Source of the DNA: a virus
Reading direction: 5' to 3' (one strand)
IMG/VR virus record: IMGVR_UViG_3300013117_000172
Location: 1-38,634 of that record
DNA: 38,634 bases
The translations under genes were made by a program, and so were the position numbers. The notes beneath the pieces are model-generated. The model saw nothing but the letters and a program-made list of their open reading frames with translations. It was not told the DNA's origin and ran no database searches. Positions 13,952-22,876 of this stretch are shown here, in pieces (positions within the stretch are counted from its first letter, which is position 1; each line of letters begins with the position of its first letter).

Positions 13952-14134
13952 TTCTCTTCTTTGAATTCTTTATATGTAAGATATGTGACCGAGATTTCTT
14001 CTTCTGCTCCACAGTCTAATATCAAGCAGACCAGCTTTGCACGGATGCGAGCTCCAAAGTGGGTTGCGGTGCACTGCAACGACACTGCCTCATTTCCACA
14101 CTTTTTTGCATTTAAGATCGAATTTATCTAGCAT
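13948..14134 (-). pseudogene. zinc-ribbon gene with one-base frameshift in an A6 run
   Basis: The ATG at 14134 with GGGGGTGA upstream opens MLDKFDLKCKK, then the frame closes after 14 codons. A one-base change at the six-A run (T6 at 14102-14107 on the given strand) joins it to a second open segment starting CGNEAVSLQCTATHFGARIR and ending YLTYKEFKEEK, whose stop overlaps the SWIM gene start by 4 bases. The joined product of about 61 residues has CxxC (KCKKCG) and a second cysteine pair (VCLILDC), a plausible zinc ribbon. No start codon exists in the second segment. This could be a real mutation, a homopolymer sequencing error or programmed frameshifting. It is the first gene after the main leftward promoter. 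Confidence 0.75.
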
Positions 14135-14195
14135 CTGTCTCACCCCCTTTCATTCAAAGTTTCATTCAATTTCCTCTTTTCATTTTCACGTCTCA

Positions 14196-14224
14196 ACCAT
14201 ATCACATTCAAAATGAAATGTCAA
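14196..14224 (-). promoter_or_regulatory. main leftward sigma70-type promoter
   Basis: Reading leftward, TTGACA (14219-14224) and TATGGT (14196-14201) are 17 bases apart. It lies about 60 bases before the first gene of the long leftward operon. CATTCAAA-type half-sites of the palindrome family lie in the spacer (14205-14212) and in the leader (14151-14158, 14163-14169). Confidence 0.85.
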
Positions 14225-14264
14225 CATCTTTCCAATGGTTATTTTAAATTACAGTTCATTCCAT

Positions 14265-14289
14265 AGATCATTCAAAATTTAAACGAACT
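14265..14289. promoter_or_regulatory. 25-bp palindrome, site 7
   Basis: A complete copy directly after the stop of the gene at 14288-14992 and about 41 bases upstream of the -35 box at 14219-14224. Unlike most copies, it lies far from a ribosome binding site but close to a clear promoter. Confidence 0.82.
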
Positions 14290-14992
14290 ATTCTTTAATT
14301 GCACCTTTTACCAATTCCTCCACATCCACTGGAGCATTCTCCTCCACTTGACTCTTCCTATCCCTCTCTTCAATCTCCTCCGCTTTCCTTTCAATCTCCT
14401 CCGCAGTCATCTTTCTCGGCACATCACTCTTCCTCGTAACAACCTGTCCACTCTCCTTCGCCACTTCAATTGCTTCCTTCGCAGCCTTTCTAAACTCTTT
14501 CTCCTCCACACCTTTAATCCTCTCCTCTGCACGTTCAAGTGCTTCTTCAATACTCTTCCTCGGACGTCTTTTAGTTTTACCCAACGGCCTGTGAGCATCA
14601 TCGAGTTGTCTTGCGCTGGATATTTTCTCTCTCAAACTTCCTCTCCTATCACTCAATATCTGATTATGCAGTGCGTTCTTCTTCCCTCTCCCTCCTCTAT
14701 TCAACTTAACTCCGAACCTATTCTCCAACATAGCTCTCGCCACAGCTGTATCATCTATCAACTCCACCTCTCCATCTTCTGTCAATTGAGTCACCAGTGC
14801 CTCAAGTGGCACTCTCACTACTTGACTCATGAACCTCGGATAGGTCCCACACTTCTCCAACCACTGTCCAAGTGTAGCTATCACTCGACTATCTAACCAC
14901 ACTTGAACTAGCACATCACCCTTGTAATTCAGCGGATTCATCACACTACTCCCTCTCGTACTATCCTTCGCATACTCTTTCTCTTCACTCAT
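14288..14992 (-). CDS. basic/charged protein next to the origin-like region, unknown
   Basis: A 234-residue protein. The N-terminal half (residues about 20-110) includes VQVWLDSRVIATLGQWLEKC, FMSQVVRVPLEALVTQLTED and an Arg/Gly-rich KLNRGGRGKKN, which suggests DNA binding. The C-terminal half is a long charged helix with many Glu, Lys and Arg (AEERIKGVEEKEFRKAAKEA). The coding strand is unusually purine-rich. It lies between the iteron-rich segment and the main leftward promoter, where a replication initiator or origin-binding regulator would be expected, but no known initiator motif is seen. AGGAGAC lies upstream of the ATG. Confidence 0.6.
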   Translation of the reverse strand: MSEEKEYAKDSTRGSSVMNPLNYKGDVLVQVWLDSRVIATLGQWLEKCGTYPRFMSQVVRVPLEALVTQLTEDGEVELIDDTAVARAMLENRFGVKLNRGGRGKKNALHNQILSDRRGSLREKISSARQLDDAHRPLGKTKRRPRKSIEEALERAEERIKGVEEKEFRKAAKEAIEVAKESGQVVTRKSDVPRKMTAEEIERKAEEIEERDRKSQVEENAPVDVEELVKGAIKE

Positions 14993-15029
14993 CTCATTTG
15001 TCTCCTTTCTCTAAATGTTCATTGTTTGG

Positions 15030-15385
15030 AACGGCACTAACCACATTGACCATAATGACCAAATTGACCACATTTACTACACTTACTATATTAAGTGCTT
15101 TAGTCCCATTGCGTCCTCCCCTCGTGCCGTTAATGTCGTTAATGTCGTTAATATGGTTAGTTCGGCACTAACAATATATTTATATATACATATATATGTA
15201 TTATATACACTATCTATATTATATATATTATATATATTAACAACACTAACCATAATGTTGACACTACAGCACTAAAACCACGGGTGGGCAACGCAATAGC
15301 ACTAAAGCACTAAGTGACCATATTAACCATAATGACCAAATTAACGACATTAACCATAATATCATAAATATGGTCAATGTCAAGG
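15030..15385. repeat. iteron-rich, AT-rich origin-like region
   Basis: This stretch holds many short repeats in both orientations: three tandem GTTAATGTC-type units (15129-15150), TAACCATAATG/GACCATAATGACC units at 15048-15060, 15248-15256 and 15323-15360, and five GCACTAA copies (15034, 15165, 15269, 15299, 15307). GTGCCG (15124) and CGGCAC (15163) are inverted around the tandem set. Positions 15170-15240 are almost pure A/T (TATATA-rich), like a DNA unwinding element. Repeats plus an AT-rich segment next to a candidate DNA-binding gene resemble plasmid or phage replication origins. The interpretation is inference. Confidence 0.72.
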
Positions 15386-15401
15386 CATTTCTCTGTACCA
15401 T
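15264..15401 (-). CDS. possible 45-residue hydrophobic peptide across the repeats
   Basis: An open frame starting MVQRNALTLTIFMILWLMSL that stays hydrophobic for most of its length because the repeats encode Leu, Ile, Trp and Ser. GAGGGAG lies 4 bases before the ATG and a 25-bp palindrome lies just upstream, the same order as at real genes. However, a good promoter (15356-15383) lies inside it and the sequence is constrained by the repeats, so it may be only the relic of a start signal. Confidence 0.3.
   Translation of the reverse strand: MVQRNALTLTIFMILWLMSLIWSLWLIWSLSALVLLRCPPVVLVL
15356..15383 (-). promoter_or_regulatory. leftward promoter inside the origin-like region
   Basis: Reading leftward, TTGACA (15378-15383) and TATTAT (15356-15361) are 16 bases apart. 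Transcription would cross the iterons and the A/T-rich segment before reaching the gene starting at 14992, as expected for transcriptional activation of an origin or expression of an autoregulated initiator. Confidence 0.68.
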
Positions 15402-15417
15402 GTCTCCCTCTTCTTAA

Positions 15418-15442
15418 AGATCATTTAAATTTTGAACGATCT
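15418..15442. promoter_or_regulatory. 25-bp palindrome, site 8
   Basis: A nearly perfect copy located between the leftward terminator at 15476-15511 and the promoter at 15356-15383. It also stands directly before a GAGGGAG-ATG. Confidence 0.85.
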
Positions 15443-15475
15443 CGATTCCCTCACTTTGAGTTACGATCTTTGAGC

Positions 15476-15511
15476 AAAAAGAAAGGACAACAACTTCTGT
15501 CATTGTCCTTT
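15476..15511 (-). terminator. rho-independent terminator
   Basis: AAAGGACAA (15482-15490) pairs with TTGTCCTTT (15503-15511) around a 12-base loop. Read leftward, CTTTTTG follows. It closes the transcription unit holding the genes at 15711-16091 and 15523-15666. Confidence 0.85.
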
Positions 15512-15522
15512 TAAGATATTGG

Positions 15523-15666
15523 TTATATTCTATCATTTTCGATATTATTCACCAGCCGTATTAATCTATCTGTAGTAACTTCTTTAAACTCGTCTTCATT
15601 AAGCTCTTTAGAATCTCTATAGATATTGTCGACTATATCTCTGTATAGATCATCTCTATTATACAT
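15523..15666 (-). CDS. 47-residue acidic protein
   Basis: A small gene starting MYNRDDLYRDIVDNIYRDSK, helical and rich in Asp and Glu. AAAGGAGGG lies 4-5 bases before the ATG and a terminator follows 12 bases after the stop. It shares a unit with the gene at 15711-16091. No family recognised; small acidic phage proteins are sometimes inhibitors of host factors, but nothing here shows that. Confidence 0.68.
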   Translation of the reverse strand: MYNRDDLYRDIVDNIYRDSKELNEDEFKEVTTDRLIRLVNNIENDRI

Positions 15667-15680
15667 AATTCCCTCCTTTC

Positions 15681-15699
15681 TATATTTGTGCAGTTCATG
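15681..15699 (+). repeat. left inverted repeat flanking the gene at 15711-16091
   Basis: TATATTTGTGCAGTTCATG is matched in inverted orientation at 16124-16142 with 17 of 19 positions the same, including 12 in a row (GTGCAGTTCATG). The pair encloses exactly one gene. Confidence 0.75.
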
Positions 15700-15710
15700 C
15701 CGGTTAATGG

Positions 15711-16091
15711 TTATTCGCTCTTGATTGTTAATGCTTCTGGGTTATCAAGGGCGGCATTGGCTAATTGTTCGGCTTTTTGTTGTGCAACTCCGGCATTCAT
15801 GAATGTTGTTACGAGTTCCGCTTTTTGCTGCTCACGGGATTTAATTGTCTGACCAATGGTACTTGCATTAAACGTCTGGCCATTCAATTCTCGTATCTCT
15901 TCCAAGGTCAATTTTCTCCAGGGTCGTTGACCAGCAATGATTCGATTCGAGGTCAACCATTGCCGGATGTCATTGTCCGAACAAGATCGATAATCAATCT
16001 TGATTGACAAAGAGCATTTGTCCCCTGCATCATTGGTTATCGAAAGAGCATGTTCCACCACTCCGATCATTTTCCCTATTGTATTATCCAT
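15711..16091 (-). CDS. hypothetical protein between inverted repeats
   Basis: A 126-residue protein starting MDNTIGKMIGVVEHALSITN. It has a middle IDYRSCSDNDIRQWLTSNRI and a helical Ala/Gln-rich C-terminus (REQQKAELVTTFMNAGVAQQ). No family recognised. The ATG at 16091 follows AAAGGGGAT; an upstream ATG at 16139 would run through the inverted repeat and is less likely. It is transcribed leftward from the promoter at 16187-16215. The composition is somewhat richer in G/C than its surroundings. Flanking inverted repeats suggest a cassette or a regulated hairpin. Confidence 0.66.
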   Translation of the reverse strand: MDNTIGKMIGVVEHALSITNDAGDKCSLSIKIDYRSCSDNDIRQWLTSNRIIAGQRPWRKLTLEEIRELNGQTFNASTIGQTIKSREQQKAELVTTFMNAGVAQQKAEQLANAALDNPEALTIKSE

Positions 16092-16123
16092 GTCATTATC
16101 CCCTTTCATGTTGGAATGTATGA

Positions 16124-16142
16124 CATGAACTGCACTCATATA
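16124..16142 (-). repeat. right inverted repeat flanking the gene at 15711-16091
   Basis: The inverted partner of 15681-15699: CATGAACTGCAC, then TCATATA. It lies in the 5' untranslated part of the gene, about 33 bases before the start codon. Confidence 0.75.
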
Positions 16143-16186
16143 AAATTGTCAATGAACACTCGATGACTGAATCTCGATCATGACGC

Positions 16187-16215
16187 ATTATTACATGAAT
16201 GATATACCATGTCAA
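16187..16215 (-). promoter_or_regulatory. leftward sigma70-type promoter
   Basis: Reading leftward, TTGACA (16210-16215) and AATAAT (16187-16192) are 17 bases apart, about 100 bases before the gene starting at 16091. ACTCGAT (16158-16164) lies just downstream and is repeated elsewhere in the control region. Confidence 0.72.
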
Positions 16216-16492
16216 GGATTATTTATTCCCTCACTCAACATATTGATATCATTGAACATTTCAGTTCGTCGACTCGATGGGGGAGATTCATGTGATTAGC
16301 GGCGGGGTTGCCACTCTCACATTTTGTCTGAAAGATTCATATAATGTACAACATTGTACATATGCATCGAGTCACACGTCACGTGCATCGAGTTGTAAAA
16401 TGAAAAAATGTAGGATGTTAGGTGAGGAGATTGTTCGGAATTTGGACAAACTTCCGTGATTTGTAGAGAGTAGAAAAATACCGAATATTACG
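16216..16492. promoter_or_regulatory. divergent control region with candidate operators
   Basis: No gene is supported here. An 18-bp palindrome with ATGTACAA/TTGTACAT arms lies at 16344-16361. TGCATCGAGT is repeated at 16363-16372 and 16384-16393, exactly 21 bases (two helical turns) apart. The same core occurs inverted as ACTCGAT at 16158-16164 and 16272-16278. The region lies between promoters that fire left and right, so these look like binding sites of a regulator that sets the direction of transcription. Confidence 0.62.
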
Positions 16493-16521
16493 TTGACACC
16501 GCACTAAAAGTGTGTTATAAT
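16493..16521 (+). promoter_or_regulatory. consensus rightward promoter of the late operon
   Basis: TTGACA (16493-16498) and TATAAT (16516-16521) are 17 bases apart, a perfect sigma70 consensus. Its spacer holds a GCACTAA copy (16501-16507), the same motif found five times in the origin-like region. It is the only clear rightward promoter before the late genes, and so strong a promoter implies that it is repressed when not needed. Confidence 0.93.
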
Positions 16522-16548
16522 GTAGGCAGGAGAATGGAGGTGGTTAGA

Positions 16549-17163
16549 GTGAGTGAGGTAGAGAAAGTTGGAGAAAGTCCGCTACGGATGGAAGGCGTTG
16601 AGAGGAGAAACGGTCTCTATGGATTTGAGTATGCGGAAAGTGATCAGAGGCGCAAGCCGAGGAGTGAGGGCACTTATCACATTAAGCAACTTTGGCAGCG
16701 CAGTCATGAGATACTTAACTTGGCAGCACGAGGGTTTAAGAATGTAGAGATTGCAGAGATCCTCAACATTGATCCTAGTACGGTCTCAGCAACGATTAAT
16801 TCTGATCTGGGTGAGAAGAAACTTTCCGAGCTCCGCTACGGTAGGGATTTAGAAGCTAAAAAAGATACAGAAAAAATTCGAGTGTTGACGAAGAAAGCTA
16901 TTTCTGTCTACAATGAAGTCTTCGATGATGACTCTGGTGAACTTGGATTGAAAGATAAGAAAGATGCTGCTAAGGATGTTCTCATGGAATTCAGCGGATT
17001 GCGAGTTCCCACGAGAATCCAGAGTCAGTCTGTTAGCACTGTCTTGACTTCGGAAGAACTCGAAGCATTCAAAGCCCGAGGCACTGCAGCTGCAAGAGCC
17101 AGTGGATTAATAGTCGACATTACATCTGAAGGTAAAGATGAGCCTGAGACAGCATCAGAGTGA
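16549..17163 (+). CDS. probable terminase small subunit (helix-turn-helix)
   Basis: A 204-residue protein from GTG with GGAGGT 7 bases upstream. Earlier starts overlap the promoter -10 box or its transcription start and are not used. A helix-turn-helix lies near residues 58-85 (AARGFKNVEIAEILNIDPST, then VSATIN). A charged helical middle follows, with KDKKDAAKDVLMEFSGL and a C-terminal tail. Small terminase subunits bind the packaging site with such a fold, and this gene is first in the late operon. The large subunit gene lies 8.3 kb downstream, so the call rests on position and fold; a late transcription regulator is the main alternative. Confidence 0.62.
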   Translation: MSEVEKVGESPLRMEGVERRNGLYGFEYAESDQRRKPRSEGTYHIKQLWQRSHEILNLAARGFKNVEIAEILNIDPSTVSATINSDLGEKKLSELRYGRDLEAKKDTEKIRVLTKKAISVYNEVFDDDSGELGLKDKKDAAKDVLMEFSGLRVPTRIQSQSVSTVLTSEELEAFKARGTAAARASGLIVDITSEGKDEPETASE

Positions 17164-17434
17164 GTTTGCTAAGAAAGTCCCTTTATTAATTCTCTACGCT
17201 TACTCACTTGGTTATGAAGTCACTATTGGCGATGTCTGGGCAAAAGATGGTCACAGGAGAGGAAGTTTCCACTATAAAAAACTAGCGATTGACTTAAACT
17301 TGTTCAAGAATGGAAAGTATCTCAGGAAAACCTCTGACCACAAACCTCTCGGATTATTCTGGGAGTCCATCGGAGGTTCCTGGGGAGGTCGATGGAAAGA
17401 TGGGAATCATTATTCTTGGGGAGAAAGTAGATGA
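17138..17434 (+). CDS. M15-family peptidase endolysin
   Basis: A 98-residue protein matching the phage M15 (L-alanyl-D-glutamate or D-Ala-D-Ala type) peptidases. It has SFHYKKLAIDLNLF with H45 and D52 (HxxxxxxD zinc motif) and DGNHYSW with H91 as the third zinc ligand. It should cleave peptide cross-links in host peptidoglycan at lysis. There is no signal peptide, so it needs a holin. The start overlaps the previous gene by 26 bases and has AAGGTAAAG before it. The length is near the minimum for this family. Confidence 0.88.
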   Translation: MSLRQHQSEFAKKVPLLILYAYSLGYEVTIGDVWAKDGHRRGSFHYKKLAIDLNLFKNGKYLRKTSDHKPLGLFWESIGGSWGGRWKDGNHYSWGESR

Positions 17435-17835
17435 TTAGCCTCGCAGGGAAAATTGTCTTAATCAGTCTCCTGTGGTCCACAGTGGCATTCGCTGGCTACA
17501 CATTCAATGTTAAGTTAGAATGGCTTCCTCAAGAATGTGATTTTTTCACTGTCTACACATTAAAAGATAATGAAACTGAATCACAAGTGGATGAAGGAAT
17601 CACTGACAACTCATTCACAATTAAGAATCTTTCCCCAGGCCTTTATCAATTCTTTGTCAGTGCTAGTAATAAATATGGAGAAAGTGATTTAAGTGAAAGA
17701 GCTCTCATAAATGTAGAATGTCCCTCAGCAGATCTTAACAATGATGGAGTGGTTGATGCTGCAGATTACGCTATCTTCACTAAACAATATCTTCAAACTT
17801 GCAAGATTAAAGAGATAAAAGTAGGAGAAAAATAA
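17431..17835 (+). CDS. secreted FnIII plus dockerin-like protein
   Basis: A 134-residue protein. Residues 1-21 are a Sec signal peptide (cleavage likely after VAFA). Residues about 24-97 look like one fibronectin type III domain (FNVKLEWLPQ, SFTIKNLSPGLYQFFVSASN). Residues 101-112 (DLNNDGVVDAAD) are a dockerin/EF-hand-type calcium loop, followed by a helix and LQTCK. Dockerins normally come in pairs and bind cohesins; only one repeat is present. It lies between the endolysin and a short membrane-associated protein, with ATGA and TAATG overlaps on both sides, so it belongs to the lysis cassette by position. Its role is unknown; a spanin-like or envelope-binding role is possible. Confidence 0.78.
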   Translation: MISLAGKIVLISLLWSTVAFAGYTFNVKLEWLPQECDFFTVYTLKDNETESQVDEGITDNSFTIKNLSPGLYQFFVSASNKYGESDLSERALINVECPSADLNNDGVVDAADYAIFTKQYLQTCKIKEIKVGEK

Positions 17836-17996
17836 TGGACTTTGTAGCAAGCAACTGGGAATATTTCCTTCTCGGCTTTATGATCCTCGAGAAAATTGTC
17901 AAGATCACGCCGGTCAAGTGGGACGACATTCTAATCGATGGACTTAAAGGAATCTTCCTCGAAATCGGTAGATTGAAAGGTAAATCAATCAGATGA
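17835..17996 (+). CDS. 53-residue membrane-associated protein, holin candidate
   Basis: A small gene starting MDFVASNWEYFLLGFMILEK, followed by IVKITPVKWDDILIDGL. The hydrophobic stretch at residues about 8-25 could insert into or lie on the membrane, and the rest is amphipathic with a basic tail. It overlaps the previous stop (TAATG) and the next start (ATGA). Similar short proteins accompany endolysin genes in other phages. A holin or pinholin-like role is plausible but unproven, because only one possible membrane span is present. Confidence 0.7.
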   Translation: MDFVASNWEYFLLGFMILEKIVKITPVKWDDILIDGLKGIFLEIGRLKGKSIR

Positions 17997-19048
17997 ATCC
18001 AAAAGTCTCCATAATAATATCTAACAGAAACGATGTTGCAATGTTAGTTGTCACAGTCCGTTCTTGTATTGAAGAATTGAGACCGCTAGGAAAAGGCGCT
18101 GGAGAGATAGTCATTGTTGATAACTCGGATGGCACTGTATATGAGATGCTTAAAAGTGCTCTCCCAATGAGTTATTGTAAAGAAGGAATTTTGAAAATCT
18201 ACCGTCAAGATTTCAACTGTCTCTTCACAGCTCGTGAGAAAGCTATAAGAGAGTCCTCTGGTGACTATGTCATGTGTTTAGATTCTCACATGATAGTTGG
18301 CAGGGATTGTATCGTTAACTTAGTAAATTTCATGGAAAGACACTTCAATAACTCTTCACTAGCCTTCGCACACGCTCCTATCACCTGGGCACATCATCAT
18401 GAGCGGACTGCTCGACATGACCGAGATATGTCAGAGAATGAACTTGGAGACTGGAACATCTTTTATGATTACGAGCAGACTATAACTTGGAAAGGTATGC
18501 CCTGGATGTGTAGGCGAGACTGGTTCCTTGATAACCAAAATGGTCTCGGTGGCTATGGAGCACTTTCAGAGCACAAAATTAGCTGGGGCGGAGGCGATAT
18601 GCACATTGGAATTAAGCCTTGGCTTCTCGGCTTTAAAAATTGGGCAGTGCCAACTAATCCCTGCATTCACATAGGTCCCTTTCCAAAACCTCCTGAAGAA
18701 CCTAGAAAAGAAAATCTCATCTACATTAAAGACATTAAACCTTCCAACAATTTCCACTCACATCAGTATAGACTCTACAGTGACAGCGGAAACTTTCCTC
18801 ATGCTTTTGGATTCCTTGTCTCATGTTATGTTCTTGGAGGCGAAGAGATGATGCAGAGAAATAAGGAACTTATCGCTAAAAGATTCGGACGGTATATAGA
18901 TATTGACAAGTGGTGGGATAAAGCTAAGGAACTTGGTGAAGATGAAAAGCAGTGGCTTGATGAAAGAAAGGTCACATCCTTTGAGCAATTGTTAGTCGAT
19001 GAACCTTGGAAAGATTATTCGGAATTTGAACAATCTATCGGTGCTTGA
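17993..19048 (+). CDS. GT-A family 2-like glycosyltransferase
   Basis: A 351-residue enzyme. It opens VSIIISNRNDVAMLVVTVRS, the start of a GT2-type nucleotide-sugar domain. IVIVDNSDG near residue 43 and CLDSHMIVG near 95-103 follow. The DSH in place of DxD is the metal-binding form seen in polypeptide GalNAc-transferases. GLGGYGALSEHKISWGGGDM near 190 resembles the acceptor-side GGxxxEDxE-type motif. It transfers a sugar to an unknown acceptor: a tail protein, capsid or host surface glycan. It lies in the late operon between lysis genes and tail fibres, which hints at virion or receptor glycosylation. Confidence 0.82.
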   Translation: MNPKVSIIISNRNDVAMLVVTVRSCIEELRPLGKGAGEIVIVDNSDGTVYEMLKSALPMSYCKEGILKIYRQDFNCLFTAREKAIRESSGDYVMCLDSHMIVGRDCIVNLVNFMERHFNNSSLAFAHAPITWAHHHERTARHDRDMSENELGDWNIFYDYEQTITWKGMPWMCRRDWFLDNQNGLGGYGALSEHKISWGGGDMHIGIKPWLLGFKNWAVPTNPCIHIGPFPKPPEEPRKENLIYIKDIKPSNNFHSHQYRLYSDSGNFPHAFGFLVSCYVLGGEEMMQRNKELIAKRFGRYIDIDKWWDKAKELGEDEKQWLDERKVTSFEQLLVDEPWKDYSEFEQSIGA

Positions 19049-19989
19049 TGGCGATTAAGTATATCAGAATAGGTTCAATGGAAGATATTCATGGCTATGA
19101 GAATGGAGACTATGATGCAGCCATTGAAACTGACGAGCCGATTAAATCTGGGAATCCAGTAGACCCTAATGATGTTGTTACATTGAGTTCCTTAGGAACA
19201 ATGCTTGCTGGATATCTAAAAGCAGACGGAACTACTGACTTAACAGGTGATTGGAGTATCTCATCCAACAGCATCACACTTGTTCTTGGCCTTCTCACTG
19301 CTTTCAGAGCAGTCTTCAACGGCTCAACTGAACCAATGATCTCGATAGAGGATTCTGGTCTCTCTAATAATAACAGGGAGTGGCTCCAAATCTTTAACAA
19401 AGACAATGTAAAAATGGTTGAAATTGGATCTATTACAAATGGAAATCCTGAGATAAGATTTGGCGATGCTGAGAATACAAAAGTCGGATTTCCTCTCTCT
19501 GATCCTACCTACTTCGCCTTTATAAATGATGAGACCGAATTCTGGCTTGGGAATGTAGCTGATCCAACCATATATTTTAATTACTATAATGGGAGTGGTG
19601 AAGCCCATGGAAGATCGGCTAACCTTCAAGGTGTGGTCTACTGGCTCACGTCGATTACTTTCTATGGTAATCACTCCACTAGATACATAAAAATTATCCC
19701 TAATACTGTTAATGATGAGCCTGTGGAATTTGAGTTTGGAGGTTTCACTACTGGTATCTTTATAGATGACAATAAAAATTTCTTCTTCGGTACAGGAAAA
19801 GATGCATCTATAAGCTATGATGGAAGTGATTTAGTAATCGATCCTCAAGAAGTTGGCGCTGGAGGAGTAAGAATCTTAAACATGAAATCAGGTGCAACAC
19901 AAGTTGCTGCTGGTGCTGCAGCTGATGAATTGTGGAAAACATCTGGTCATGCAACTTTACCAGACAACGTAGTAATGATTGGAGTATAA
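19048..19989 (+). CDS. tail fibre-like structural protein
   Basis: A 313-residue, beta-rich protein starting MAIKYIRIGSMEDIHGYENG. It continues with IETDEPIKSGNPVDPNDVVT, a pattern common at the head of phage fibre proteins. The body has repeated short strands with Gly/Asn/Asp turns (for example YFNYYNGSGEAHGRSANLQG). The end SYDGSDLVIDPQEV followed by GAGGVRILNM is typical of fibre shafts. It has no signal peptide, unlike the next three proteins. The start is ATG at 19048, overlapping the stop as TGATG. Confidence 0.75.
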   Translation: MAIKYIRIGSMEDIHGYENGDYDAAIETDEPIKSGNPVDPNDVVTLSSLGTMLAGYLKADGTTDLTGDWSISSNSITLVLGLLTAFRAVFNGSTEPMISIEDSGLSNNNREWLQIFNKDNVKMVEIGSITNGNPEIRFGDAENTKVGFPLSDPTYFAFINDETEFWLGNVADPTIYFNYYNGSGEAHGRSANLQGVVYWLTSITFYGNHSTRYIKIIPNTVNDEPVEFEFGGFTTGIFIDDNKNFFFGTGKDASISYDGSDLVIDPQEVGAGGVRILNMKSGATQVAAGAAADELWKTSGHATLPDNVVMIGV

Positions 19990-19990
19990 T

Positions 19991-22876
19991 ATGAAAAAGT
20001 GGATAATTTCAGTAACTTTTGCCTGTTTAGCAATTGCATCTATTGCATTCAGTGACTACTTCCCAGATGTCATTGTAACATCTCCAAATGGTGTCTGGAC
20101 TGACACTCGTGCTTATGCAACTATTGATGATGCTATCACGGCGATAGGTGCTAATGTTCGAGATATTTATGTGGTGAGGCAAGAAACAACTACTGCATTA
20201 ATAGTCCCTGCAAATGCCAGCTTACATTTCTTCGCTGCTGGCTCCATTGCCAATTCAGGGCAACTAACTATCAATACAAAGAATGTCTTCGCAGGAGATC
20301 GGCAAATCTTTACTGGCGCAGGTGACATTGACTTCATTGATGGATCAGTTGTGCGTTCAACTTGGTTCAGTGATCTTGTTGAATCCCTCGACATGACCAA
20401 TGATGATAAGCTTACTTTAATTGTTGCTGAGGCAGATAACATAGATGCAGATGCTGCAGTTGGCAATGATGTTGTTTTGAAGTGGGAAGCGCCAGGACAG
20501 ATAATTACTGCTGATGCAACCTTTACACTCTCTAACATTAAAAATATTGAAGCTGGAGATTATCAAATCATAGCTGGTTCCGGTGACTTTGATTTCCTCG
20601 ATGGAACAGCATTAAATCTTAGTTGGGCAATTCGACTGAGGGAACTACTAATTTGGATCGAGGCTGAGACTGCAACTATTGTTGTTAAAGGGATTCATGT
20701 TGTTGAGTATACTCAATCAACTGCATCTAATGAATTTCTTCACATTTTACCTGGAGGTCGATTAGACCCTGATCCCGGAGTTGTTTTAACTTTAGCCAAT
20801 CCGCCTTTAGCTGGAAGCTACCAAATCTTTGGAGGCTCTGGGGCGGTAACTCCTCCAAGTGGTTGTGTAGTCAAATTAGCTTGGTATGCAAGTCTTGCAA
20901 AAGCTGTCACCGATATAGGAGCTGTGGATGTCAGTCTGAAAGTTGATGCTAGTGATACAATGACTGGAAATATAACAATTCCTAATACTGTATCACTAGT
21001 AGGCTCTAAAGGAAATTCAGTAGACACGACTGGATTTACTATCACTGTAAATGGAGTATGTAAAGCATCTGAGAATATGTTTACTGGCACTGGAGCAGTT
21101 ACTTTAAACGGTACTCTCATAGCTGGCGATGTACAACTGTGGGCTTCTGGAGTCACTGTAACTGGAACTGCCTTTACTTTAGTAAAACCTGTATGGTGGG
21201 GAGCTGATGATACTGGATCAGTTAATTGTTCTACCTTAATAACTGCATTGCATGCTGCAATGGTAGATGGTGGGACTATGGACTTCGGTGAAGGGACTAA
21301 GACTTATGAATTCGAGAATGTTACATTTAGTAAATCTGTCAATATGATCGGTGAAGCTACATTGAGAGCGGCAGATGGTAACAATGATAATGAACTTATT
21401 ACCTTTACTGGATCTAACATCACGATTGAAGGACTTGCCTTCGATGGAGATCAGGCTAATCAAACTACTGTAAATACTCAAGAGAAGCAGATTCTGTATC
21501 TTGGCGGAGGGTCAACAATTTTAAATATAGATATTTCTCACTGCGCTTTCACAGATAGCATAGCATCTTGTATATATGCTAGAGATGTTCAGAATGTAAA
21601 AGTTACGGAGTGTTCATTTCGTGATATTGGTAAACTGAGTCTTGTGTCAAGAGGTATTGCAATTCGTCTGGCTGAGGCAGATGACGTATTTGTATCTAAG
21701 AACTACATTGATGCTTATGGTGATTCTGGTAAAGTCGGTATTAGAATTGGTGGTCCAGATGATGCTGTTACTCCGCTTTATACTCCAAGAAATAATCGAG
21801 CAGTTATTGTCGATAACATTGTTAAAAATATACTTTATGATGACGGTGCTGGAGGGTATGGAATAGGGATATCAATAGCATCTTATGAGGAGGCAATAAT
21901 ATCTAATAATCAAGTTTATAATTCGCGAGGTAATTGTTATGATACTAATAGAACCAAGAATTGCACATTTACTGGCAATATTGCTGCTGGTAGTATAGCT
22001 AAGAATGGATACAACCCGGATTATACTCATGATGGCGATAATGAGGCAGGCGGTATTTTAACTGTATCAAGTTGTATATTTAGAGACAACGCCTTGAGGG
22101 GATTGCAAATCAGTGGGGCATGGGACGGTTCAACAACATATGCTCATTACGGTGCAACTATAGTAACGGGCTGTATATTTCAGGAGAACGGCACTGCGGG
22201 AGTTTCAGCCAGAGACACAAGCTCTTTAACTGTCTCAGGTAACTTGTTCTTAGATAATCATGATGGAGCCAGCAGCGTTCAACTTTATATAACTTCAGCA
22301 GATGACGGCACTCACTATGTTGGTGATGTGACAGTTACAGGAAATACTTTCAAAGATACTCGGGGAGCGGTTAATGCTACTGATTATCATATTTGGTTTA
22401 CTAAATATACTAATGCAGGATATGGCGCTGATGATGACAAGATGGTTTGTTTTAATCCTGTTATTGGCTCTAATACGTTTTCTGGTCATCTTGTATCACC
22501 ACTATATTCAGATGCTAGTAGTAATGTTCCAGTTGGGACACCGAAGTTTGGTTATGCAAGAGTACTTAATAATCATGGTACAGCGCAAAGTATAACTAAT
22601 GGAGTTGGACAGAAAGCTACTTCTTGGGACTCTTGTGAGTTTGATACTACTGGAGGGGCAATAGGAATATCTTTAGGCTTAGGAAACTATATAGGCCAGA
22701 GAAAGTTTTTCGTTATGACTACTGACGGTGGTTCAGATGTTACTTTAACTGTTACCCATCATGAGACATCAACTCCTGAAGTTTTTCACTTTCGTGATGC
22801 ATTAGATCATCTTATTCTTGAATGGCAAGGGGATGTATGGATTACAATAAAGAATAATGGAGTAGAACTTGTTTAA
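19991..22876 (+). CDS. tailspike-like right-handed beta-helix protein with signal peptide
   Basis: A 961-residue protein. Residues 1-21 form a Sec signal peptide (MKKWIISVTFACLAIASIAF). The N-terminal third contains about four copies of a module ending AGDxQIFxGxGDxDFxDG...W, at about residues 100, 190, 280 and 380. A pectate-lyase-like beta-helix covers about 400-800, with many short strands such as ITIEGLAFDGDQ and VKVTECSFRD. A C-terminal beta domain follows (KFFVMTTDGGSDVTLTVTHH). Such proteins usually bind and cleave surface polysaccharide. The ATG at 19991 follows TTGGAG. A signal peptide on a virion spike is unusual, so it may be exported from the cell. Confidence 0.83.
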   Translation: MKKWIISVTFACLAIASIAFSDYFPDVIVTSPNGVWTDTRAYATIDDAITAIGANVRDIYVVRQETTTALIVPANASLHFFAAGSIANSGQLTINTKNVFAGDRQIFTGAGDIDFIDGSVVRSTWFSDLVESLDMTNDDKLTLIVAEADNIDADAAVGNDVVLKWEAPGQIITADATFTLSNIKNIEAGDYQIIAGSGDFDFLDGTALNLSWAIRLRELLIWIEAETATIVVKGIHVVEYTQSTASNEFLHILPGGRLDPDPGVVLTLANPPLAGSYQIFGGSGAVTPPSGCVVKLAWYASLAKAVTDIGAVDVSLKVDASDTMTGNITIPNTVSLVGSKGNSVDTTGFTITVNGVCKASENMFTGTGAVTLNGTLIAGDVQLWASGVTVTGTAFTLVKPVWWGADDTGSVNCSTLITALHAAMVDGGTMDFGEGTKTYEFENVTFSKSVNMIGEATLRAADGNNDNELITFTGSNITIEGLAFDGDQANQTTVNTQEKQILYLGGGSTILNIDISHCAFTDSIASCIYARDVQNVKVTECSFRDIGKLSLVSRGIAIRLAEADDVFVSKNYIDAYGDSGKVGIRIGGPDDAVTPLYTPRNNRAVIVDNIVKNILYDDGAGGYGIGISIASYEEAIISNNQVYNSRGNCYDTNRTKNCTFTGNIAAGSIAKNGYNPDYTHDGDNEAGGILTVSSCIFRDNALRGLQISGAWDGSTTYAHYGATIVTGCIFQENGTAGVSARDTSSLTVSGNLFLDNHDGASSVQLYITSADDGTHYVGDVTVTGNTFKDTRGAVNATDYHIWFTKYTNAGYGADDDKMVCFNPVIGSNTFSGHLVSPLYSDASSNVPVGTPKFGYARVLNNHGTAQSITNGVGQKATSWDSCEFDTTGGAIGISLGLGNYIGQRKFFVMTTDGGSDVTLTVTHHETSTPEVFHFRDALDHLILEWQGDVWITIKNNGVELV

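Follow-up and report, generated by a model that had tools for sequence, protein, structure and literature searches.

The O proteins of lambdoid phages swap their N-terminal domain along with their iterons. Most ribbon-helix-helix (RHH) proteins function as repressors or antitoxins or in partition, and autorepression is typical of them. At the lambda origin, the array-bound protein, the A+T-rich DNA and transcription through the region all act in opening (PMC5043065, PMC3985674). In the omega/parS system of pSM19035, at least four gap-free heptads are needed for full activity (PMC9499535). The locus described here lies in a single linear IMG/VR virus record of 38,634 bases, which may be a fragment; this whole stretch of analyzed DNA is referred to as the window. 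As judged from sequence comparisons, the locus is probably where a tailed phage of lytic type begins its replication, an origin of the lambda-O/iteron kind with an RHH recognition module, and the product of the adjacent gene P1 would be its origin-recognition protein.

The locus is housed in the gap at 14993-15710. A + strand ORF at 15015-15275, which crosses the arrays and the A/T island and is without a family match, is discounted as spurious, and without it no ORF-free stretch of the window is longer than this gap. Its features and the flanking genes are as follows.

Left of ~15 kb, mostly leftward: genes including a ParB-domain/DNA methyltransferase, a dCMP deaminase, a Sak4-like ATPase, an exonuclease and an ATP-dependent ligase
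14288-14992, - strand: P1 (234 aa), with a predicted RHH N-terminal core (~residues 24-72), a charged helical middle and a conserved C-terminal tail, MTAEEIERKAEEIEERDR
15034-15094, + strand: left tandem array of 9-bp units, GCACTAACCACA TTGACCATA ATGACCAAA TTGACCACA TTTACTACA CTTACTATA TTAA
15094-15311, unstranded: imperfect palindrome of 218 bp around the A/T island (69% self-match, E 1.8e-12)
15125-15161, - strand: inverted tandem array, the left arm of the array palindrome, reading TGCCGTTAATGTCGTTAATGTCGTTAATATGGTTAGT on the + strand
15173-15240, unstranded: A/T island, best segment with 5 G/C in 68 bases, a proposed DNA-unwinding element
15237-15275, + strand: right inner units, TTAACAACACTAACCATAATG ... 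GCACTAA
15299-15377, + strand: right tandem array, GCACTAAA GCACTAAG TGACCATA TTAACCATA ATGACCAAA TTAACGACA TTAACCATA ATATC...
15356-15383, - strand: predicted leftward promoter PL, TTGACA (15383-15378), 16-bp spacer, TATTAT (15361-15356)
15374-15403, - strand: conserved block at and upstream of the -35 element, for which the relatives' consensus on the leftward strand is TAATTGTACcaaATaaTACcTTGACAATgt
15482-15511, - strand: intrinsic-terminator-like hairpin of the upstream leftward unit, a 13-pair stem with a T-rich tail, just before PL
From 16.5 kb, rightward: genes including TerS, TerL, portal and major head protein

The elements listed in an earlier, sequence-only reading of this DNA (tandem and inverted units, five GCACTAA motifs, a GTGCCG/CGGCAC inverted frame, an A/T stretch and a leftward promoter) are all present, and the repeats exceed chance expectation. 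Two copies of GTTAATGTC and one of GTTAATATG occupy 15129-15155, units of the TAACCATAATG type start at 15047, 15245, 15324 and 15351, and GCACTAA occurs at 15034, 15165, 15269, 15299 and 15307 (5/8 of its copies in the 38.6-kb window), at the edges of the clusters of 9-bp units. Within 15030-15385, bases nine positions apart agree in 138/263 cases, where shuffled sequences average 72.5 (z 8.7), and among tandem periods of 6 to 13 this is the sole one with an excess. The RACSAYA core is present in 12 copies in these 356 bp and in two at most in any other 356-bp stretch of the window, and TTRACSAYA occurs 12 times in the window, where 2.7 copies are expected, with eight of the 12 lying within 15030-15385. 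No further array of the 9-bp unit was found elsewhere in the window. The division of these repeats into several separate families was not borne out: GTTAATGTC, TAACCATAATG and GCACTAA appear to be forms of a single 9-bp unit, CGRCAYTAA / TTRACSAYA, either varied or reverse-complemented, and the reverse-complement and transition variants of TTRACSAYA include GTTAATGTC, TAACCATAATG and CGGCACTAA. Likewise, the GTGCCG and CGGCAC words of the inverted frame are found around 15124-15129 and 15163-15168, but they constitute the edge of a 9-bp unit rather than an element of their own. The array at 15125-15161 (arm 15129-15159) pairs with 15324-15354 as inverted repeat I3, with 87% complementarity, and the right tandem array ends with an inverted TTGACCATA unit at 15369-15377 and overlaps the leftward promoter.

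The A/T stretch at 15170-15240 contains 6 G/C in 71 bases, and no 71-bp segment of the window has fewer (the next one elsewhere has 14); the island is also the least stable duplex of the contig, at -0.861 kcal/mol per step vs -1.039 at the next best site. The outer arms of the palindrome lie at 15094-15114 and 15291-15311, the array arms (15129-15159 and 15324-15354) reach past it, and the 218 bp fold as single-stranded DNA with a z of -5.7. The promoter that had been supposed to fire leftward through the region was recovered as a predicted TTGACA(16)TATTAT at 15383-15356, which is syntenic in the relatives. To its right lies P2 (15711-16139, - strand, 142 aa), a second conserved leftward gene between TerS and PL with homologs in ~20 relatives and no family in Pfam or PHROGs; a terminator-like hairpin separates it from PL. 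Further right, a perfect sigma-70 consensus promoter (TTGACA-17-TATAAT; 16493-16521, + strand) faces the TerS operon, and its spacer holds CGCACTAAAAGTG, in which the GCACTAA word known from the arrays occurs once, possibly as a P1 site. The mechanical GTG start (16510) of the TerS ORF (16510-17163, + strand) falls within this promoter; homologs begin at Met27 (ATG 16588), and thus the real TerS start is later than in the ORF list.

The nearest named relative is the Desulfofustis phage LS06-2018-MD01 (OP947158), the TerL and TerS of which are 48% and 32.5% identical to those of the window. The DNA of the region showed no similarity to 50,697 phage records, no TerS relatives that might hint at a host were found in GTDB genomes, and an exact search of IMG/VR with a shared 20-mer pattern matched a near-identical contig alone (L005). 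This contig (L005/L006, IMGVR_UViG_3300009128_001707) spans 14972-20287 of the window with 99.98% identity and all arrays unchanged, and represents the same virus in another record. As a single query, P1 retrieved no relatives from viral contigs; they were reached through TerS synteny, followed by phmmer/HMM searches for P1. The resulting comparison set consists of the window and 30 distinct TerS-related uncultivated phages (31 leaders, the boundaries of which are approximate because the P1 ORF starts are mechanical in some relatives).

A comparison of the repeats in relatives that keep the flanking genes, as the sequence-only reading had advised, showed that P1, TerS, the promoter and, mostly, the palindrome and A/T island are retained and that the repeat words track the P1 type, an outcome that favors that reading. 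A syntenic P1 homolog lies directly left of the leader in all 30 relatives. An unsupervised motif search returned one ungapped 30-bp block in 31/31 leaders, weakest in L051, which corresponds to the -35 element of the leftward promoter and the conserved part upstream of it. Duplex stability over 60 bp reaches its minimum for the entire locus between P1 and TerS, a small part of each locus, in 24/30 loci and elsewhere in the other six. In most leaders the A/T stretch is enclosed by an inverted repeat, and leader folding exceeds that of shuffled sequences on both strands (mean z about -4.6 / -4.9) without strand bias, which indicates that the symmetry belongs to the DNA and not to the transcript; no folding excess was found in the leaders of L024, L025 and L032. 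The repeat words themselves differ among relatives, with units of 7-9 bp: 9-bp TTAACGACA/TTAACCATA in L007, L030 and L044, 8-bp ATGTTTAA in L010, 8-bp CATTGACA in L051 and TTTG-type words in L013/L014. Between P1 and the palindrome, the leader of L031 (6051-6620) seems to include additional sequence that resembles coding DNA. Host DnaA was rejected as the main binder, as there is just one DnaA box across all leaders.

P1 is proposed to be the array-binding protein. Neither a Pfam nor a PHROG model matched it, it was absent from the 50,697 phage records and 72,556 plasmids searched, and no match to the known initiators O, Rep and DnaA emerged from Pfam, PHROG, PDB sequences and phage records, although a remote homology to them may exist. 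A weak match of the P1 profile to ribosomal protein S7 was taken as chance. An AF model of residues 10-85, computed as a monomer, in which a strand is visible just as an extended segment, comprises an extended segment at 16-24 and helices at 26-38 and 46-63, the second of which is opened by an invariant Ser. The VIA-align list for this core is dominated by RHH proteins (Z 3.3-4.4): the best alignment is to Arc (Z 4.4, 47 residues, 2.5 A), followed by Rv0298, ORF56, ArtA, NikR, PutA and CopG, and TraM is also present. The fold predicted for the core is therefore likely to be ribbon-helix-helix, with Z values that are low, the domain having just ~50 residues, and no RHH family model in Pfam at a usable E-value; a Foldseek search of the PDB with the full-length model gave nothing meaningful, and the core alone gave no E below 0.001. 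The C-terminus (window 14288-14400, - strand) carries the motif MTxEExexKxxEIEERDR, which is common to both RHH types described below, and is likely a partner-binding tail. The P1 transcript is strongly purine-rich, and the GC skew at 14001-15000 is extreme (-0.50).

The P1 cores form two types, type I with 14 leaders and type II with 17, and the repeat words follow them. ACGACA is present in 11/14 type I leaders vs 0/17 type II leaders (Fisher 4e-6), and at least two copies of CAAACA/CATACA in 0/14 vs 15/17 (Fisher 5e-7), these P values being descriptive because the words were chosen on the same loci. In the unsupervised counterpart, Mantel tests of P1 against the arrays gave r 0.18 (p 0.0014) and, after TerS, 0.17 (p 0.002); TerS too correlates with the arrays (partial Mantel 0.155), which reflects some phylogenetic signal. 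Mapped on the TerS tree, the RHH type of P1 switches nine times. Among the supported independent pairs, the word changes with the type in 3.7/4 and against it in none, four pairs being too few for significance (p 0.125). Such a switch is seen between L029 (type II) and L030 (type I), which are ~93-96% identical over most aligned blocks (~94% over the greater part of the genome). In the 1.1 kb around their leaders, identity falls to background in the stretch that encodes the RHH part of P1 and throughout both arrays, and it resumes in the C-terminal part of P1, including the tail motif, in the promoter and in the inner palindrome frame (TATACCATTCACG, AACGATCTT / AAGATCGTTAA). This exchange has the form that binding of the arrays by P1 would lead one to expect, and it is one of several mosaic joints between these genomes. 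The suggestion that a DNA-binding protein is encoded next door is upheld in the form of P1, a predicted RHH protein whose type covaries with the array words, and it is very probable from this covariation that P1 reads the array beside its gene.

For the locus as a whole, the candidate origin of the sequence-only reading, with iterons, an A/T island, a neighboring binder and a leftward promoter, is still the best fit, although not with several repeat families. The traits in support of an origin are a repeat array beyond chance, a low-stability A/T element and a covarying neighboring binder, whereas homology to a known initiator was not found. A family-A DNA polymerase is encoded in 15/18 records of relatives, and no model of a DnaB-type helicase matched. 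GC skew was dropped as evidence for an origin: its sign flip near 15.5-16 kb of the window coincides with the divergence of the gene arms, and the cumulative minimum lies elsewhere in six long relatives. The most likely mechanism is that P1 dimers bind contiguous 9-bp units directly and cooperatively through their RHH domain, and that the arrays on either side of the A/T island, which are largely inverted, would give rise to one dyad-symmetric nucleoprotein complex. By coating the arrays, P1 would strain the DNA between them and, together with leftward transcription from PL, might open 15173-15240, by analogy with lambda, omega/parS and F55; the conserved C-terminal tail of P1 would then recruit the replication machinery. 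The overlap of the right array with PL would in addition let P1 restrain its own production. In more general terms, these phages may initiate replication with an RHH domain that recognizes the origin via contiguous 7-9-bp units, the RHH domain and arrays forming a specificity cassette that has been swapped repeatedly among related phages, around an opening element, a promoter and an effector tail that remain in place; we regard this wider proposal as evenly poised between right and wrong.

The chief rival to the origin is an operator for PL. P1 would be an RHH repressor of its own early promoter, and the arrays and the flexible A/T stretch would hold a repression loop or roadblock, with no replication start. 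This alternative accords with the autorepression typical of RHH proteins, with the binding of the RHH protein F55 to tandem ATAGATAG repeats at early promoters (PMC5569661), with the abutment of the right array on PL both in the window and in the relatives, and with the confinement of the 9-bp arrays of the window to this one place. However, it leaves unexplained why the relatives retain such an extreme A/T island, and lengthy palindrome arms beyond the arrays, even as their sequence changes, and what the long conserved tail at the C-terminus of P1 is for. In addition, the nearest named relative is predicted to be strictly lytic (PMC10370329) and would have no need for a lysogeny-type repressor. 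A pure operator appears rather unlikely, although it merits serious consideration.

It is very unlikely that the region acts as a riboregulator, through a structured leader RNA at the 5′ end of the P1 operon. Leftward transcription from PL crosses the region, which folds strongly, and arm mismatches on the + strand comprise 52 A.C vs 19 G.T, which could reflect a G.U bias on the leftward RNA; this excess is partly explained by the C-rich + strand and is suggestive at most. By contrast, the non-transcribed strand folds equally (z -4.9 vs -4.6), there is no Rfam match, and the arrays track the predicted DNA-binding domain of P1.

Even less can be said for a partition centromere, in which P1 would be a ParB/omega-like RHH adaptor and the arrays its parS. 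The geometry is nearly identical to the contiguous ungapped short units, direct and inverted, of pSM19035 (PMC9499535), but ParA (PF13614) is absent from 18 records of which some are possibly fragments and was found in 14/14 controls, ParM-like NTPases being outside this search. There is also no tyrosine integrase match and nothing else that points to a plasmid stage (PMC10370329), and P1 is missing from the 72,556 plasmids, so that this alternative is extremely unlikely. A packaging site (pac/cos) recognized by TerS is just as improbable: TerS has an HTH and its gene starts only ~1.1-1.2 kb to the right, but this HTH is nearly invariant where the array words change completely, and TerS is nearly unchanged between L029 and L030 despite the replacement of both arrays, even though a weak TerS-array correlation persists across all loci. 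An attP site was rejected for want of a tyrosine integrase match, in a search that excluded serine integrases.

If the origin proposed here is correct, an RHH protein as origin binder would be an added type of initiator in phage replication, and P1 as a marker, together with the array rule, would provide a means of finding origins in a group of uncultivated phages. The ~30 protein-site pairs with some nine changes of specificity would form a natural set in which the recognition code of RHH proteins is directly testable. It would also become testable why phages keep changing the specificity of their origins, for instance whether this prevents cross-talk when relatives infect the same cell.

Among phages with a related gene plan, the Desulfofustis phage MD01 (L009, OP947158.1) resembles the window in that the least stable stretch of its genome lies ~2.1 kb from TerS, inside a 55-nt inverted repeat (75% complementary). 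This unannotated region (43054-43434) also contains three 17-bp-spaced direct repeats of another word, and is possibly the origin of that phage. On the other hand, MD01 has no P1 homolog by profile and encodes WBK39792 in that place; it thus extends the palindrome-plus-island layout and not the pairing with P1. F55 of SSV1 is a viral RHH protein that binds tandem 8-bp repeats at early promoters and at its own promoter (PMC5569661). However, F55 maintains lysogeny through few sites at several promoters, whereas the phages described here are apparently lytic and have one array locus, which flanks an A/T island. The omega protein of pSM19035 is closer in its geometry, as an RHH protein on contiguous gap-free 7-bp units that are arranged in arrays in direct and inverted orientation (PMC9499535), but it serves partition with ParA; in the present case no ParA was found, the unit is 9 bp, and an A/T island and a long palindrome are added. 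The lambda origin and its O protein share with this locus the repeated initiator sites, the A/T-rich opening element, the promoter transcribing through it and a binder encoded at the origin (PMC5043065, PMC3985674). The predicted binding domain of P1 differs from O in being RHH, without detectable similarity to known initiators. Moreover, the four 19-bp iterons of lambda lie inside the O gene, whereas the ungapped 9-bp units of the window (7-9 bp in relatives) flank the island in the leader of P1.
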